In this document: one piece after another, positions 19,400 through 25,822 of the stretch
Numbering within the stretch: the first letter of the stretch is position 1
Layout: each line of letters begins with the position of its first letter
Assembly (NCBI GenBank): GCA_012522475.1
Contig: JAAYKH010000039.1
Location: 1-36,971 of the forward strand
DNA length: 36,971 bases
DNA from: Chloroflexota bacterium
GTDB taxonomy: Bacteria > Chloroflexota > Anaerolineae > Anaerolineales > Anaerolineaceae
Reading direction: 5' to 3'
The notes under the pieces: generated by a model
Databases searched by the model: none
What the model was told of the DNA's origin: nothing
What the model saw: only the letters and a program-made list of their open reading frames with translations
Made by a program: the position numbers and the translations under genes

Positions 19400-19476
<77 letters not shown>

Positions 19477-19533: not shown

Positions 19534-20301
19534 TCAGGGCACTTTTCCAAACGCGTAGAAGGTAGGGAGGAACAGCACGCGCTCTCCCTTCTTTTGCGCT
19601 TCCTGTTCATTCCACATCAATTCTGAAAGCTCAGTGTGGTTCAATCGATCTTCAAGGTCAGCTTTGAGCATGCCCCATTCGGTGGGGTCGTTTGTTAACA
19701 GCGCTGTATCGTGCCACTCGGCTCCCATGATGCCGGTTTTAACTTCTATCAAGCCTGTTTCCACAAAAAGCCTGCGCAGCTTCCGGCCGATGCGAATATC
19801 GACCCCCTGTGTTTGCAGAGCGTCGGTTTGAAGTGCGCCCAGAAAATCTAAGGGTGGCGGATAATCGATGCGTGCCTGGTAGTCTGGCTCAGCCAGGGCC
19901 AGCACCCAGCCGCCGGGGTGCGTTACCCGCTGCATTTCCGCTAAGACCTGCCCAGGATTCGCAGCCCACATCAGCAGGTAATGACAGAGCGAGACAGTAA
20001 ACTGATTTGCTGCAAAGGGCAGTTGATGCCCATCGCCTAAAACCTGATTAATTGTTGGGTGTTGGGTTTTGGCAAAGATTGCGCTGGGATAATCGAGGTC
20101 AACCCCAAAAACATGGCGATAACCTTCATCGATCAAGGCTTCCATGATAGCGCCTGTTCCCGAGCCGACCTCCAGGATAGGGACGTCTGGCCAGGGTGCA
20201 ATGTTCTTGAAGACATACTTCCGGAGGTGCGAGGTCCATCCGGCCTGGGCTAAATACCGATGATGCCACTCCAGGCGGTTGAGGTTTTGAAAATCTTGCA
20301 C
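19534..20301 (-). CDS. Class I SAM-dependent methyltransferase in the radical-SAM operon
   Basis: The protein has 255 residues with a GTG start at 20301, only 2 bases after the pseudo-radical-SAM stop, with AGGT close upstream. Motif I is ILEVGSGTG (about 42-50), the acidic strand-2 end is GVDLD (about 68-72), and the motif II/III region is GDGHQLPF...VSLCHYLLMWAANP, followed by HPGGWVLALAEPDY. This is the general Methyltransf_11 layout for small-molecule or protein substrates. Its place as the last gene of an operon with two radical-SAM-like proteins and a Cys-Ala-tailed membrane protein suggests it acts in the same pathway, perhaps methylating the modified tail. That role is inference; the enzyme class itself is clear. 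Confidence 0.82.
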   Translation of the reverse strand: MQDFQNLNRLEWHHRYLAQAGWTSHLRKYVFKNIAPWPDVPILEVGSGTGAIMEALIDEGYRHVFGVDLDYPSAIFAKTQHPTINQVLGDGHQLPFAANQFTVSLCHYLLMWAANPGQVLAEMQRVTHPGGWVLALAEPDYQARIDYPPPLDFLGALQTDALQTQGVDIRIGRKLRRLFVETGLIEVKTGIMGAEWHDTALLTNDPTEWGMLKADLEDRLNHTELSELMWNEQEAQKKGERVLFLPTFYAFGKVP

Positions 20302-20303
20302 AC

Positions 20304-21461
20304 TTACCTGTTGCCCCAGATTTTTTCCCAGGGATCTGTAAGGATATTACCCAGAATTTGAGTATATAAACCCTGGGATGGTAGGACATCGCCATCAGGC
20401 TCGATATACAACCAGGCCTGACCAGCACCTTCTGGCACCTCTTGCTCACCGGCTTGCTCCAACTCGATTGAGACCGGGTTGACCTCGGAATACGGCACAG
20501 GCATATCCCATACAAGGTCCAGTTGAAGCACAGCGGCGAAGTTACGCAAGTCTTCCAGTTCTGAAGCCAGGTTGAGCGATGTTCCGCTTAATGAAATTGC
20601 ATGAACGCCCATCTCTGCCATACGTTGCAGGTGAGAATGAAAATCATCACCTTCTCTGAGGGTCAGGTGCACGGTTGTGTGGATGTCGTCAGCCAGCACT
20701 TTTTGCAGTATCTCCCATGCCGTGGGGTTATCGGGATTGAAGGCGATCATCAGATGGTCCAGGCCATTCATCAAGAGCTTGCTTCTGAAGGCATTCTCTT
20801 CCAGTTTAAGACCATCTGTCAGCAGGCCGGTCACAAGGCCTAATTCCTCGGCAATTAAAATCAGATCCGGCAGGTCCTCCCGCAAGGTGGGCTCTCCACC
20901 AGTAAACAAGAGGTGGGGAATGCCTTGGTCAAAGGCTTTCTTGAAGATCATCTCCCATTCTGCGGTCGTCAACTCTCGATCGACCCGCTCGAGGGGTGCT
21001 GCTCTCTGATGGTTTTTGTCGGAAACCTGGTAGGTGAGGGCACAATCCAGCCGGTAGGGTGCCGAGATCGCTTCGCTATAGGGCTCTTGACGATCAATGT
21101 CAAGGTAAGTTACGGGGTCAAGGTCGGGGGTTTCTATCAGGGTGTTGAGCCGATCAATAAAGGCTTGATAATCATCTCGCACCTGTTCGTCATCAATTTT
21201 ATATCTTTGTGAAACTGCTTTGATCACTGCTTCGAGATCTGTATGGTTGATGAAATGATACGCGTATTCAACAGCAGTCTGATTCAGGTGTAAAACTGTG
21301 GCTGCATTAATCACCAATAGGCCAGTACCATCCTGCTCAATACGCAGGTGAAGACGGTATTGCTGTTCATCTTGTGGTAGCGTTCTATACGTGTACATAC
21401 CGGGGGGCAAGGGCTGTTTTCGTGAAAATAAATCCTTGATGGTGTCGATCAGATTGGGCAT
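20304..21461 (-). CDS. Pseudo-radical-SAM protein: paralogue without cluster cysteines, PqqD-like N-terminus
   Basis: This 385-residue protein is clearly homologous to the upstream neighbour but catalytically disabled. A PqqD-like (RRE) domain lies at about 33-105 (LLVINAATVLHLNQTAVEYAY). The barrel keeps FTGGEPTL (about 186-193). The CxxxCxxC of the neighbour, in ALTYRCNND, aligns here to Val146, Asn150 and Arg153, and the SPASM cysteines of MCVESNGDVIPCQ become Tyr and Ser in YIEPDGDVLPSQ. The protein ends soon after, lacking the last SPASM cysteines. Only one Cys (C140) remains in the whole protein. The frame is intact with a good GGAG site, so it is a maintained gene. Pseudo-radical-SAM partners are known in some peptide-maturation systems; a scaffold or substrate-presenting role is likely. 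Confidence 0.85.
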   Translation of the reverse strand: MPNLIDTIKDLFSRKQPLPPGMYTYRTLPQDEQQYRLHLRIEQDGTGLLVINAATVLHLNQTAVEYAYHFINHTDLEAVIKAVSQRYKIDDEQVRDDYQAFIDRLNTLIETPDLDPVTYLDIDRQEPYSEAISAPYRLDCALTYQVSDKNHQRAAPLERVDRELTTAEWEMIFKKAFDQGIPHLLFTGGEPTLREDLPDLILIAEELGLVTGLLTDGLKLEENAFRSKLLMNGLDHLMIAFNPDNPTAWEILQKVLADDIHTTVHLTLREGDDFHSHLQRMAEMGVHAISLSGTSLNLASELEDLRNFAAVLQLDLVWDMPVPYSEVNPVSIELEQAGEQEVPEGAGQAWLYIEPDGDVLPSQGLYTQILGNILTDPWEKIWGNR

Positions 21462-21479
21462 ATTAACTCCAATTTCACT

Positions 21480-22859
21480 CTAAAATACCGGATTTTTGAT
21501 CGGATGAATGGTTTGGTGTTGACGGGCCAGCGGACATCCCCCGCCGCATTCGGGTAAATAATCACAGGCACGGCATCCTTCAGGAATATCCTGTCGGTTC
21601 CGCAGCTGCAACGCCAGGGGGTGTTCCCAAATCTCATGCCAGGAATCTTCCAGCAGATTACCTAAAGATTGATAATAGGACTGGCATGGAATCACATCAC
21701 CATTAGATTCAACGCACATGTTATACAGGGCGGCTGTGCAGCCTTTGATTCCCAGGTCCAGTTGGATGGGGTTGAAGTGGCAGTATTGGGTCGGGGTGTA
21801 CCAGATGAGTCGCTGCTCGTTGCTTTGGGTGATCTCGCGTGCCTTTTCAAGTAAGGAGGGCAGTTCAGTTTCTTTCAGACCGGTATCCACGGTTTCGCCT
21901 TTGCCCGAATAGATCAGGGCGTTCAGGCCAATGGTAGGAACCCCCAACTGGGCCAGAAATTCAAGGGTCGCTTCGATGGTGGGTGCATTGTGCGTTAACA
22001 GGGTGGTGTTGGTCATGACGTATAAGGGGGTTAAGAGTACATTTTTTAACCCCGCTACAGTTTCCGCCCAGGCGTTTTTGGCAGCCACCATCTGATTGTG
22101 GATGGCTGCATCATGAGATTCGAAGGTGATTTGCACATGATCCAGGCCTGCTGTGACCAGTTTATCCAAATAAGCTTGATCAGCTAATTTACGCCCGTTA
22201 GTGTTCAGCCCGGTGATCAAACCCTTGCTTTCAGCATAAGCCACCAATTCTGGCAAACCCTGGTATAAAGTCGGCTCTCCGCCGGTGAACACAATATGCG
22301 GAATACTGAGGTCCCAAATCTTGTCGATAATTTGCATCCAAGACTCTACACCTATCTCAGGGTAATTACGAGAACGGGCATTGTAGCAATGATGACAGTC
22401 ATTATTACAACGATAGGTGAGCGCCAAGTCCATCCGGTAAGGTGCGCTGGGTGTGGCGCTAAAAGGTGCCATTGTTTCCAGGCTCAGTTCGCAAACCGGA
22501 CAGCCACCATTAGGGCTGATCAGATCTTCCAATTGGGATGTGAAAGCTAAAAAATCCTGGACAACGTCAGCGGTTGAGATGTCAAATTGTTGACGTAAAA
22601 CTCGCGCTGCACTTTCAGGCGTATGCCCTTCCAGGTACAGGTACGCCATCGAAACAGCTGAGGGGTTGAGATGTACAACCCGGTTGGCATTGGCGATTAA
22701 CAGCCCGCTTCCATCGGCGTCGATTCTGAGGTGAAGGCGCATTTTTTCATCTTCGCGCTCTCGTAGATAATGGTACAAACCGGTAGAAAGCGAAAACTCT
22801 TTTTTGAATCGCTGATTGAATTTATTAACCAGGCTGGCAAAAGCGCTCATCGTTGACAT
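21480..22859 (-). CDS. Radical SAM/SPASM protein with PqqD-like (RRE) N-terminal domain, peptide-maturase type
   Basis: The enzyme has about 459 residues from ATG 22859 (an ATG at 22850 is also possible; neither has a strong ribosome-binding site). An earlier reading frame back to 22973 runs through the Cys-Ala repeat of the upstream gene and is rejected. Residues of about 33-115 are PqqD-like (GSGLLIANANRVVHLNPSAV). A CPVC pair lies at 120/123. The cluster motif CNNDCHHC gives C151, C155 and C158, and FTGGEPTL follows near 192. The C-terminal SPASM domain has seven cysteines (C374, C382, C392, C429, C432, C438, C442) in GCTAAL, MCVESNGDVIPCQ and CRACDYLPECGGGC. SPASM enzymes commonly install thioether or C-C crosslinks in peptides, and the RRE binds the substrate leader. 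It starts 31 bases after the Cys-Ala-tailed gene. Confidence 0.9.
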   Translation of the reverse strand: MSTMSAFASLVNKFNQRFKKEFSLSTGLYHYLREREDEKMRLHLRIDADGSGLLIANANRVVHLNPSAVSMAYLYLEGHTPESAARVLRQQFDISTADVVQDFLAFTSQLEDLISPNGGCPVCELSLETMAPFSATPSAPYRMDLALTYRCNNDCHHCYNARSRNYPEIGVESWMQIIDKIWDLSIPHIVFTGGEPTLYQGLPELVAYAESKGLITGLNTNGRKLADQAYLDKLVTAGLDHVQITFESHDAAIHNQMVAAKNAWAETVAGLKNVLLTPLYVMTNTTLLTHNAPTIEATLEFLAQLGVPTIGLNALIYSGKGETVDTGLKETELPSLLEKAREITQSNEQRLIWYTPTQYCHFNPIQLDLGIKGCTAALYNMCVESNGDVIPCQSYYQSLGNLLEDSWHEIWEHPLALQLRNRQDIPEGCRACDYLPECGGGCPLARQHQTIHPIKNPVF

Positions 22860-22890
22860 TCTAGTTTCATATTTGGTTAGACCGGTGCGG

Positions 22891-24636
22891 TCAACGCCCA
22901 CCCCCTGCACAGGCACAGGCACAACCTGCACAGGCACAGGCACAGGCGCAAGATGAACCCCCACCCCCGCCACGGAAGCCGCGAGAGCCAGATGAACTGC
23001 TGACCGGGATTGGATTGGTGCGGGTGGTTATGCCATTGGTGAAAGAGGTCAGGTTGCCGATTACCCCGGCTGACATCGCAGCTGTGCTATTGATAACATT
23101 GGCAGCAAAATTTGAGCCCGGGATATTGGGAAGCGAGACCTTACTACCACCAGAGGACGTTGTTTGAGCAGGAACAGGGTTGGAAACCGTACCGCCAATG
23201 CTGCGTCGATAAGATGGTGAATAACGTGGCCACCAGATTGGCACAAAAACCGGATCGGACCTGAATGTGCGTTGTGTGCGTTCCTGGTATTGGTCATCGA
23301 GCATCGTCCATTCCATGGTCTGGTCGTAACGTTCGCTCTTAACCTCAGGAGTATCGGATTCCTCGACCATTTTCCAGGCCCTGCGCATGATGTCTTCGTA
23401 ATAGGCAATGGTTTCTTTGCGGCTGAAACCCTTCATTTTTTGAGATATGCTGTTGACCAGGGTGACCATCAAATTTTGCATCGCGGTACGACGTTTTGCC
23501 CCGGTGAGCGTGATAGCCTCTAAAAAGTCAATTTCATAGGGATGCAAACCCTCCGGGAGCGGCTTTGTAACTTCAACTTCGAGTGGTTCTTCCTCGATAA
23601 CGATTGCCGCCTCTTTTTTAAGGACACCGAACAAAATCATGGTAAATACTTTGTCCATGGGCTGTTCCATCAATATCGCTGCCTCAACAGCAGTCAGGCC
23701 GCGCTTGATGCCGTTGCCCTCAATCTTCATCTTAGGCGGTAGATAAGCCATCTTGCGCTTCTTGGCGCCTACAGTGGCCTGGTATATCACAAAGCTGATC
23801 AGGGCAATAAAAAAGGCAAAAACGCCAAAGCAGCAGCAATTTTCGCTTAAAAACGCCAACAGTGATGGGAAAAATCCTTTTGGTTGGCTGACAATGCCCG
23901 GCGTTGTTGTTTGGGGCGGTACGGTGATTAGCAAACCTTCGGGGATTAACCGGTCGGGGAAAGCAGCGCCAAACAGATATTTTGTATGTGCATCGGCGTT
24001 GTCGGTGTACCAAGAATAATACACGCGCTCCTCAGCCGCTGTTCGTCCAGTATCATCCGGTGTGTCGGGGCCTGGCCAGCCCTGCGGTGTATAATAAACA
24101 CCTTCATCATCGCCCACACCAGGCGGGAGGATAATGGTCATCCGGTATTCGGTGTTGGTACTGCGATCAAAACCGGGATCAAACCAGGTAGGGGTGAACT
24201 GAAAATTGACATAGTCTTCTCGGTCGCCGCTATCGTACTGGGAGAGTACATTGCTAATGCCAGATATCCAGGCGGTAACGACGCCCGTTTGTCCGGGCGG
24301 GATGGCATCGTTTTCAAGCGCCAGGGCAAATCCATTGGGCACATAGGGTGAACTTTCAATTTTACTGATCGTCTTGCCGTCTATTTCTGCCTGAATGGCG
24401 TTTAGATTGTACGCCGAAGAGGGCATACCAATGTCGATGAAGTCAATTGGGTCAGCGCTGTTGGAATTGGTAAATTGAAGGTAATACCACAGTGAAAGGG
24501 TCCCGTCATCCTCAATGTAAGCTTCGACCTCCATCACGTCGACATTAAAGCGATAGGTCTGGGCAGCCACCGATACGGGAAAAGCAAACATCCCGATCAG
24601 GGCCAGAAAAAACAACACGTTATAAAACTTTTTCAT
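22891..24636 (-). CDS. DUF2207-like membrane protein with cytoplasmic Cys-Ala repeat tail
   Basis: The protein has 581 residues. A signal peptide (1-25, ending in VSVAAQ), an extracytoplasmic beta-rich domain (about 28-240), one membrane span (about 257-286, preceded by C267-C269) and a long C-terminal region that should be cytoplasmic are seen. That region contains KIEGNGIKRGLTAVEAAILMEQPMDKVF (about 305-332), as in YciQ/DUF2207 proteins. The last 45 residues are low complexity: Ser/Gly-rich, GFRGGGGGSS, then seven Cys alternating with Ala at 563-577 and a final GGGR. DUF2207 proteins usually end in Gly/Ser repeats; the Cys-Ala tail is the oddity. It follows the zinc-ribbon gene by 3 bases and precedes the radical SAM gene, so it is the likely substrate of that enzyme. 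Confidence 0.82.
   Translation of the reverse strand: MKKFYNVLFFLALIGMFAFPVSVAAQTYRFNVDVMEVEAYIEDDGTLSLWYYLQFTNSNSADPIDFIDIGMPSSAYNLNAIQAEIDGKTISKIESSPYVPNGFALALENDAIPPGQTGVVTAWISGISNVLSQYDSGDREDYVNFQFTPTWFDPGFDRSTNTEYRMTIILPPGVGDDEGVYYTPQGWPGPDTPDDTGRTAAEERVYYSWYTDNADAHTKYLFGAAFPDRLIPEGLLITVPPQTTTPGIVSQPKGFFPSLLAFLSENCCCFGVFAFFIALISFVIYQATVGAKKRKMAYLPPKMKIEGNGIKRGLTAVEAAILMEQPMDKVFTMILFGVLKKEAAIVIEEEPLEVEVTKPLPEGLHPYEIDFLEAITLTGAKRRTAMQNLMVTLVNSISQKMKGFSRKETIAYYEDIMRRAWKMVEESDTPEVKSERYDQTMEWTMLDDQYQERTQRTFRSDPVFVPIWWPRYSPSYRRSIGGTVSNPVPAQTTSSGGSKVSLPNIPGSNFAANVINSTAAMSAGVIGNLTSFTNGITTRTNPIPVSSSSGSRGFRGGGGGSSCACACACAGCACACAGGGR
22906..22950 (-). repeat. Tandem repeat encoding the Cys-Ala tail
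   Basis: On the minus strand a 21-base unit (TGTGCCTGTGCCTGTGCAGG plus one base) occurs twice in tandem, preceded by one further Cys-Ala pair (TGCGCC). It encodes the CACACAG heptapeptide twice. The differing last base (T, then G) shows that the copies have begun to diverge. The repeat is in frame and lies at the extreme 3' end of the gene. Confidence 0.9.
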
Positions 24637-24639
24637 GGG

Positions 24640-25008
24640 TCACCACTTGGGTTCTTCGGTTAATTGGTAAGTCGTTGAACAATGCGGACATTCCACCACC
24701 GGGGCGCCAGCAATCATTTTCACATCTTTGGATGTTATCGGGCCACCACAAGATTGACATTTAATGGTATCCATCCCAACCTGGCCAGGAAGATCAATGT
24801 TCAAATTGACGACCTGATCGGCCGCTTTTTGTGGTGGGCTGAGCTTGACACCGATGATGATCAACACAAAACCGATGCCCAAACCTACCAGACCGATCAG
24901 GAGCCAGGAAGGTTGTCCATCAGGGCTGAACGCACCCAGGATGAATAGAAAAGAGAATATGATAAAAACCGCAGCAGTAATAAAGGCGATAATCTTTCCA
25001 GCGCGCAT
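24640..25008 (-). CDS. Small membrane protein with C-terminal zinc ribbon
   Basis: The protein has 122 residues from ATG 25008, which carries AGGAGGT about 5 bases upstream; an earlier in-frame start at 25032 is upstream of that site. Two hydrophobic segments (about 7-29 and 37-58) form a hairpin, followed by KLSPPQKAADQ. The C-terminal domain has CQSCGG and CPHC, two CxxC knuckles of a zinc ribbon (about residues 83-110). It is the first gene of the operon with the Cys-Ala-tailed protein, the radical SAM pair and the methyltransferase. No specific family was recognised. It may form a membrane complex with the next protein, or act as a metal or redox sensor, but this is only context. Confidence 0.75.
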   Translation of the reverse strand: MRAGKIIAFITAAVFIIFSFLFILGAFSPDGQPSWLLIGLVGLGIGFVLIIIGVKLSPPQKAADQVVNLNIDLPGQVGMDTIKCQSCGGPITSKDVKMIAGAPVVECPHCSTTYQLTEEPKW

Positions 25009-25195: not shown

Positions 25196-25822
25196 ATGAA
25201 GGAAAAATTTGTTCCCGATATTGTGGTTAAAAGATTACCCTGGTATTTGCAAACGCTGAACCAGATGGCCAGGGAAGGTTTGCATACAGTCTCCTCTATT
25301 GCCCTGGCAGACCGTGTGGGAACAAGCGGGGCGCAAATTCGAAAAGACCTATCTTATTTTGGTGAATTTGGAAAACAAGGTACGGGTTACTCTATTTATT
25401 TTCTGATTGAACAATTACAAAAGATACTCAAGGTGGACAGAATCTGGCGGGTTTCGGTTGTCGGTGCGGGTAACTTGGGGCGTGCGTTAACCCGTTATCA
25501 GGGATTTGCCAATCGAGGGATTGATATTTGTCTTTTATTCGATAATGACCCCGGCCTGGTTGGCATCCGGGTAAATTCTCTGATAGTCCGGCATGTGGAT
25601 TCAATGGCAGATGACATTCAAGATATGAAGGTAAAGATGGCGATATTAACGCTGCCCAGTGAGGCTGCACAGGCAACGGCTGATGTATTGGTCGGGGCTG
25701 GGATCCAGGCGATTCTCAACTATACACCGGCGGCATTGATGTTACCAAAACATATTCAAGTGGAACATATTGACCCGGTTTTACAACTTCAACGGATGAT
25801 GTATTATTTGGGTGAAGAATGA
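25196..25822 (+). CDS. rex: Redox-sensing transcriptional repressor Rex
   Basis: The protein has 208 residues, the usual Rex length. An N-terminal winged helix (about 1-75) has VVKRLPWYLQTLNQM and the strongly conserved SGAQIRKDLSYFGEFGKQGTGY. The NAD(H)-binding Rossmann domain has VVGAGNLGRALTRYQGF (about 87-103), FDNDP and the C-terminal domain-swapped helix. Rex senses the NADH/NAD+ ratio and represses fermentation and respiration genes. The ATG at 25196 follows AGGA at 11 bases. It is divergent from the radical-SAM operon and overlaps the convergent downstream gene by 19 bases. No clear Rex box was seen upstream, so autoregulation is not supported. Confidence 0.95.
   Translation: MKEKFVPDIVVKRLPWYLQTLNQMAREGLHTVSSIALADRVGTSGAQIRKDLSYFGEFGKQGTGYSIYFLIEQLQKILKVDRIWRVSVVGAGNLGRALTRYQGFANRGIDICLLFDNDPGLVGIRVNSLIVRHVDSMADDIQDMKVKMAILTLPSEAAQATADVLVGAGIQAILNYTPAALMLPKHIQVEHIDPVLQLQRMMYYLGEE

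Follow-up and report, generated by a model that had tools for sequence, protein, structure and literature searches.

What does a peptide-maturase-type radical S-adenosylmethionine (SAM) enzyme modify when the gene directly preceding its own encodes a large membrane protein that ends in alternating Cys and Ala residues? Most of what is known of radical SAM peptide maturases comes from secreted small peptides, and the question is raised here by a five-gene operon (A to E) in a 36,971-nucleotide stretch of a Chloroflexota genome (GCA_012522475.1, contig JAAYKH010000039.1; hereafter the window, meaning the whole stretch analysed). An earlier sequence-only reading had proposed that the substrate of the enzyme, C, is the tail of the membrane-anchored protein, B. 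That core proposal is strongly supported by two results: a Cys-tailed protein is encoded beside C in 108/123 genomes, and the type of tail agrees with the clade of the enzyme. Judged from these comparisons, the tail of B is very probably the substrate of C, and we assign a probability of roughly 0.7 to the whole account, in which the anchored tail would be modified by a dedicated enzyme, with D and E helping, and would be retained.

Open reading frames (ORFs) and sequence confirm the layout that had been described, five minus-strand genes at 19534-25008 with gaps of 2-31 bases (3, 31, 18 and 2 bases for A-B, B-C, C-D and D-E). The gene order is A, then B, C, D and E, so that Cys-tailed B directly precedes C. 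The features are as follows (RRE, RiPP recognition element; RiPP, ribosomally synthesized and post-translationally modified peptide).

24640..25008, minus strand: A, 122-aa membrane protein with a C-terminal CxxC...CxxC zinc-ribbon-like domain
22891..24636, minus strand: B, 581-aa membrane protein, the proposed substrate
22894..22950, minus strand: Cys tail of B, CACACACAGCACACAGGGR (residues 563-581), the segment proposed to be modified
22999..23121, minus strand: conserved helix of B (residues 506-546), followed by linker and tail; putative leader-like site that the RRE of C may bind
21480..22859, minus strand: C, radical SAM/SPASM enzyme with an N-terminal PqqD/RRE-like domain, the proposed tail modifier
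22518..22781, minus strand: PqqD/RRE-like domain of C (residues 27-114), from a sub-cut-off PqqD score and the model
22386..22409, minus strand: CNNDCHHC, the radical SAM [4Fe-4S] motif of C (residues 151-158), from the sequence
21534..21782, minus strand: SPASM (auxiliary-cluster) region of C (Cys 360, 374, 392, 429, 432, 438 and 442), from Pfam and alignments
20304..21461, minus strand: D, PqqD-pseudo-radical-SAM paralogue of C without cluster Cys
19534..20301, minus strand: E, SAM-dependent methyltransferase (Methyltransf_11), proposed co-modifier of the tail

A membrane protein with a Cys-Ala tail

The last 19 residues of B (CACACACAGCACACAGGGR) hold seven Cys alternating with Ala, with one Gly inserted, after a Gly/Ser-rich linker, which bears out the description of a seven-Cys tail on a membrane protein encoded beside a radical SAM gene. 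B has a signal peptide, one transmembrane segment (~258-292), no further hydrophobic segment and five positive charges within the 12 residues that follow the membrane. Because a single transmembrane segment after a signal peptide has positive charge behind it, B is predicted to be a type I membrane protein whose Cys tail faces the cytoplasm, within reach of C; topology prediction and model thus support the cytoplasmic position assigned earlier. The model (predicted local distance difference test, pLDDT, 79.8; predicted template modelling score, pTM, 0.47) places an extracytoplasmic beta domain at 30-230, followed by the transmembrane segment, a winged-helix-like and helical part at 310-480, helices at 507-526 and 529-540 and then a low-confidence tail. 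In the B alignment, the mean majority-residue fraction is 0.47 for residues 506-540 versus 0.29 for the linker that precedes them. Members of one B alignment (A1) were chosen by tail pattern, so that its tail conservation is biased, and the counts relied upon here come from whole-B or enzyme-only searches.

A whole-B search of 400 Chloroflexota genomes gave matches in 30, and all 28 full homologues, the window included, end in a Cys-Ala (CA) tail (27 tails, again with the window, were read directly and that of G232 on a second fragment). These proteins are far from identical to window B (37-69% identity for the 26 other whole homologues, 44 and 55% for the two G232 pieces), and the linkers ahead of the tail are variable. 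The ending CACACAGCACACAGGGR plus stop (17 residues) is written in 59 distinct ways at the DNA level across 67 locus entries (loci collected up to that stage, a few places being counted twice), so it is the amino acids that are under selection and not a DNA repeat. As a control, the other ORFs of at least 100 aa in 77 clustered loci were examined, with clusters A, B, C/D and E, the four largest, set aside; 0/533 had an end this rich in Cys (at least six in the final 40 residues).

These results bear on the alternative that low complexity or assembly has produced the repeats as an artefact, or that they expanded recently and have no function. The tail is indeed a simple repeat, and the contigs of G463, G903 and G412 break inside it. 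The many synonymous versions of the same residues argue otherwise, as does the presence of the tail in the single-contig genomes G005, G112 and G337 and in the cultured isolate Ornatilinea apprima P3M-1 (L111), which has all five genes; most other carriers are metagenome assemblies. We regard an artefact as having a negligible chance of being the explanation. Metagenome contigs broken within the repeat also mean that draft genomes may under-count tails.

Pairing of enzyme and tail in bacteria and archaea

The sequence-only reading had named, as evidence against itself, homologous enzymes found mainly without a Cys-tailed neighbour. Genomes were therefore searched with the enzyme only, leaving the tail free to be absent (cut-offs of E 1e-30 for Chloroflexota, 1e-60 for Asgard archaea and 1e-80 for Bathyarchaeia and Planctomycetota), and a tail protein was scored as beside C when it lay within ~1.5 kb, with a paralogue or small gene in between in some cases. 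Over all groups, 108/123 genomes have a Cys-tailed protein beside C, seven have it elsewhere, three show a partial or interrupted one and in five none was found. Cys tail and PqqD-SPASM enzyme thus co-occur in bacteria and archaea alike, and the enzyme is mainly found with its Cys-tailed neighbour.

Among the 400 Chloroflexota genomes, 32 were matched and 30 counted, and 31/31 C loci have a Cys-tailed neighbour, 28 of the CA type and three of a second type described below (G136, G382 and a second locus in G011). The two genomes left out of this count have only a D-like protein (G096) or two distant radical SAM proteins (G329), and neither has a B match. C is present in 54 of 148 Asgard genomes, with the tail protein beside it in 40 (23 CA, 17 of the second type), elsewhere or split onto another contig in seven (G465, G428, G463, G442, G520, G502 and G488) and represented by B fragments in which no tail could be read in G526 and G425. 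All nine Planctomycetota genomes with C (of 199) have the tail beside it, one at a contig edge, and 29 of the 30 Bathyarchaeia genomes with C (of 151) have an intact tail beside it. The Bathyarchaeia genome G598 (L336) shows an in-frame TGA at one tail Cys codon with the remaining tail intact behind it, for which sequencing error, decay or recoding are the alternatives. Conversely, C was found somewhere in 17/17 tail genomes picked from tail loci of a DNA scan, including loci without C in view.

That contig scan, for CACA-x-CACA, returned at least 120 stretches; 80 loci were examined, of which 37 were C-terminal tails and 43 were matches inside other or short frames. By record titles, tail-bearing bacteria include at least Chloroflexota, Pirellulales (Planctomycetota), Armatimonadetes, Zipacnadia, Aminicenantes, Zixiibacteriota, Sabulitectum, Hyd24-12 and Coatesbacteria, and tail-bearing archaea at least Bathyarchaeota and the Asgard groups Hodarchaeota, Heimdallarchaeota and Sigynarchaeota. 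The B-C pair is common to many bacteria and to Asgard and Bathyarchaeia archaea, and two Asgard B proteins (L133 and L115) with 29 and 24% identity to window B keep the core CACACAGCACACAGGGR unchanged.

CA tails have the variants CACACACACAGGGR in Asgard, without the central Gly, and CVCACASCACACACVSCACACAGGG in Bathyarchaeia. The second tail type (HSAC) consists of Ala-Cys-His-Ser repeats and also occurs in bacteria and archaea, ending in ...ACVSSV in Chloroflexota and taking the form (ACHS)n GGSF in Planctomycetota, with Asgard examples as well. The number of repeats varies within each type. We dropped a palindromic hairpin model, with each Cys facing an Ala around a central Gly, on account of the many Asgard tails of the form CACACACACAGGGR that have no central Gly. 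A third tail type, GGGGGCSGCGGCGGGCGGCGGGGGGGCGGCGG, stands beside another radical SAM gene at L273:3354-5133 (G402, Sigynarchaeota); we take it to resemble the ends of the TIGR04222 membrane proteins considered below.

A tree of 76 C proteins separates 19 on the HSAC side (15 Asgard, three bacterial and L256) from 57 others (52 labelled CA and five Asgard enzymes without an adjacent tail) with split support of 100/100. Since bacteria and archaea stand on both sides of this split, tail type follows the enzyme clade and not the organism. L256 was placed on the HSAC side before its tail was known, and the contig edge then proved to hold an HSAC tail; two of the five Asgard genomes without an adjacent tail on the CA side (G442 and G463) have a CACACACVSCACACAGGGR tail elsewhere in the genome.

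An alternative interpretation is that the tail binds metal or a cluster unmodified, in the manner of a metallothionein, and that C has some other product or acts on a different part of B. High Cys density, the His of HSAC tails and the zinc-ribbon-like A in the operon are consistent with this, but we consider it quite unlikely because the tail is paired almost strictly with a peptide-maturase-type enzyme and its type matches the enzyme clade; moreover, a His-free alternating CA tail kept residue for residue would in our judgement be unusual for a mere binder.

Enzyme C, its partners and the proposed reaction

Much of the earlier description of C as a RiPP maturase stands: it has a CxxxCxxC motif, a SPASM domain (PF13186, 39.5 bits; cut-off 21.5) and seven Cys between positions 360 and 442 that are invariant in two alignments, together with a Radical_SAM match (PF04055) of 77.2 bits (cut-off 29.5). 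CxxxCxxC is present in 76/76 C proteins of the tree set. Two parts fit less well. The PqqD match (PF05402, cut-off 23.4) of C is just below threshold at 20.6 bits, that of D being over it at 28.6, and window C lacks the final Cys of the textbook SPASM motif, as do 18/19 Chloroflexota CA enzymes of the tree set, while that residue is kept in 15/15 CA-type Asgard and 3/3 Bathyarchaeia enzymes; the invariant C360 may stand in for it. The model of C (pLDDT 83.5, pTM 0.85) has an RRE-like arrangement of four strands (27-64) and three helices (66-114).

The nearest solved folds to C are SkfB (6efn, Z 27.7, 350 aligned, root-mean-square deviation (rmsd) 3.9), SuiB (5v1t, Z 27.5) and 5why (Z 25.7), which we take to be the sactipeptide thioether enzyme CteB, with anSME also among them. 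SkfB, CteB and SuiB share with C the radical SAM and SPASM domains and, going by the model of C, an RRE-like one, but differ in sequence (16-21% identity), and here there is no small precursor and no exporter among recurrent neighbours. In place of the small precursor of a sactipeptide system, the candidate substrate is a 581-aa membrane protein. By sequence, SkfB and PqqE match C best. C stays below the NCBIfam equivalog cut-off in all of the 25 matches listed, NirJ2, PqqE, StsB, SkfB and GeoRSP among them (its highest score is 131 bits where 500 are required), so that its reaction is not readable from a family.

D is, as had been read, a pseudo-radical-SAM paralogue of C free of cluster Cys: it exceeds the cut-offs of both Radical_SAM (35.5 bits; cut-off 29.5) and PqqD, but it lacks CxxxCxxC and holds no Cys over its final 30%, and the motif is missing in 39/39 D proteins (one partial). 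A second radical-SAM-like paralogue without CxxxCxxC lies beside C or B at L113, L137, L073, L251, L255 and L127 (five proteins and one partial), in Planctomycetota, Armatimonadetes, Zipacnadia and some Chloroflexota; judged by its sequence motifs, the pairing with a dead partner extends beyond D. E matches Methyltransf_11 with 66.8 bits and has relatives beside C in Asgard loci, and A has two N-terminal hydrophobic segments and ends in EEPKW, its zinc-ribbon matches all being below cut-off.

Of 27 Chloroflexota CA loci that were fetched, some of which end at contig edges, 26 have A, 26 have D and 20 have E. When 65 CA and 12 HSAC loci were clustered, the counts were at least 42 versus 0 for E, 34 versus 0 for A and 37 versus 0 for D, with motif-bearing C at 59 versus 12 and B at 56 versus 10; these are lower bounds, as a gene was lost from the ORF clustering wherever a longer spurious frame overlapped it, which befell, for instance, C in L055 and L118 and also B in L113. 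D and E were not found in the HSAC loci, so a core reaction common to both tail types does not depend on them. A different transmembrane, zinc-ribbon-like gene recurs in 8/12 HSAC loci, and the core of the system is B plus C, usually with a membrane zinc-ribbon gene.

The same neighbourhoods bear on whether B is a giant RiPP precursor, its tail being modified, cleaved from the protein and then exported to serve as a small signal or an antibiotic. The RRE, the SPASM enzyme and the Gly-rich stretches flanking the Cys region would suit such a precursor, and Peptidase_S26 (signal peptidase) occurs in 6/65 CA loci. Against this, the 22 most recurrent gene clusters shown (ten representatives tested) hold no exporter and Peptidase_S26 as the sole protease, which, like methylmalonyl-CoA mutase (16/65 CA loci), is far rarer than B and C, and the window operon has no protease or exporter gene by Pfam. 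The invariance of the tail across phyla is also unlike diversifying bioactive peptides, and B keeps large conserved folded domains; we therefore judge a released product very unlikely. The product of C is probably retained, since no exporter was seen among the recurrent neighbours and the signal peptidase is rare there.

We thus propose that the RRE of C would bind B, perhaps at the conserved helix 507-540 before the tail, and that the radical SAM and SPASM clusters would act repeatedly along the Cys/Ala repeats, a mode for which the varying repeat number is suited. Most likely, Cys sulfur would be joined to a neighbouring backbone or side-chain carbon to form thioether rings, with Ala a possible acceptor in CA tails. 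These rings may be of the sactipeptide or ranthipeptide type, and B may be a sensor or scaffold, as the earlier reading suggested. D, having lost its cluster ligands, would probably hold or position the substrate as a binding or scaffold subunit, and E would add methyl groups to the tail or its end. The modified tail would stay membrane-anchored and facing the cytoplasm, perhaps as a metal- or redox-active or structural element.

Because Cys sulfur is common to both tail types, Cys-to-carbon thioethers are our leading guess for the reaction, held tentatively and at slightly less than even odds. Alternatively, C may modify the tail by other chemistry, for instance by epimerising residues, methylating carbon jointly with E, decarboxylating or oxidising Cys, or linking Cys to carbon in some other way. 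SPASM enzymes with RREs perform several reactions, and besides sactisynthases the nearest folds to C include SuiB, which makes a carbon-carbon link, and anSME. The latter converts Cys or Ser to formylglycine (PMC8172795, in the text available). The low NCBIfam scores of C leave the same latitude. However, dense Cys repeats, variable in number, are kept in both CA and HSAC tails, which points indirectly to Cys sulfur as the common participant and makes other chemistry somewhat unlikely beside thioether formation.

Several observations count against the account as a whole. The PqqD score of window C lies under the Pfam cut-off; the rest of B diverges alongside the enzyme clade, and C might recognise B without modifying its tail; and a Cys tail could on its own bind metal unmodified. 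In addition, no B or tail was found in 5/54 Asgard genomes with C (G450, G475, G469, G457 and G521), D and E were not found in the 12 HSAC loci, and the recurrence of Peptidase_S26 makes tail cleavage possible.

Precedents exist for both halves of the proposal. For action on a protein, the nearest is the pair QhpD/QhpC, in which QhpC is a subunit of a quinoprotein enzyme, quinohemoprotein amine dehydrogenase. According to the text available, the radical SAM enzyme QhpD forms Cys thioethers in a protein rather than in a small peptide (PMC8172795). As so described, QhpD is a radical SAM enzyme that acts on ribosomally made protein, as is proposed for C; here, however, a membrane protein supplies the candidate substrate, its Cys-repeat tail, and the operon showed no gene for a quinoprotein. 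For the substrate, Cys-rich C-terminal ends of TIGR04222 membrane proteins, which consist of Ser/Gly with interspersed Cys and are predicted to be periplasmic, have been proposed as MNIO substrates, and MNIO genes are missing in a third of the genomes with TIGR04222 genes (PMC12452194, in the text available). As far as that text goes, both cases place a proposed modifying enzyme next to a membrane protein whose C-terminal tail is of low complexity (Gly/Ser/Cys), whereas here the enzyme is a radical SAM protein, the (CA)n or (HSAC)n tail is predicted to be cytoplasmic and the pairing is nearly strict, as opposed to an MNIO and a looser link there. None of the five operon proteins matches an MNIO family.

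Radical SAM action on a protein and Cys-rich membrane tails proposed for MNIO are thus already known from the texts available, and what is unusual here is the reach. In the literature searched, in its available text and with preprints and most subscription journals outside coverage, we found no description of the B-C pairing, no paper on DUF2207 (a family considered below) together with radical SAM and none on the tail letters; the single match for SPASM, Asgard and radical SAM concerned, in the part available, lipids. One may conjecture, though we would not rate it quite an even chance, that the pair represents an ancient cross-domain modification. The tail would be crosslinked many times over to become a cofactor, or a metal or redox element, that is tethered to the membrane and faces the cytoplasm, and at least two chemotypes, (CA)n and (HSAC)n, would each be served by a separate enzyme clade. 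If this is true, structural or cofactor proteins matured by radical SAM enzymes would form a class apart from the secreted RiPPs. The near-strict pairing and residue-for-residue conservation of the tail across domains point to a basic cellular function and not to chemical warfare. The tail would also offer a short, defined substrate for radical chemistry, with CA and HSAC as two natural enzyme-substrate codes.

Relatives of B and neighbouring genes

B had been labelled DUF2207, a label that we reject for window B, which has no Pfam match up to E 5, and keep as a distant relation: the distant relative L065 passes the DUF2207 (PF09972) cut-off with 25.5 versus 24.4 bits, and L061 and L243 score 15.9 and 21.6 bits, below it. 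Membership of TIGR04222 was likewise rejected, since neither B nor its own genome gives a match and L065 reaches a sub-threshold 22.8 of 43 bits. A search of solved structures with a B profile returned nothing significant. By fold, the beta domain (residues 26-229, window 23950-24561) resembles Ost1/ribophorin I (6ezn_A, Z 16.6, rmsd 2.8, 185 aligned, 10% identity), with M1 peptidase domains ranking lower (Z ~12). Ribophorin I homologues have been reported in Asgard archaea (PMC10307638 and PMC11417166, in the text available). An identification of B with these finds no support in sequence, and the likeness is one of fold: Ribophorin I/Ost1 (PF04597) has no match up to E 1 in ten B proteins or up to E 5 in window B.

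Sequences like parts of B also occur in other proteins. At L063:5442-8078, in a same-genus relative that also has the operon, an 878-aa protein joins a Ser/Thr kinase domain, a stretch like the B beta domain and an FGE-sulfatase domain, and at L064:5794-6926 a tail-less paralogue of the cytoplasmic part of B stands beside a paralogue of A in a genome that has the full operon. An Ala_racemase_N/D-serine-dehydratase-like gene lies near the enzyme in 6/12 HSAC loci (for example L244:6129-7280).

In the window, a tRNA-Pro gene (anticodon ggg, 19401-19476, minus strand) lies immediately downstream of the operon. On the other side, a divergent gene (25196-25822, plus strand) encodes Put_DNA-bind_N and CoA_binding domains, which we take to be the architecture of the redox repressor Rex; its family adjoins the operon in 6/65 clustered CA loci, a recurrence that hints at redox control.

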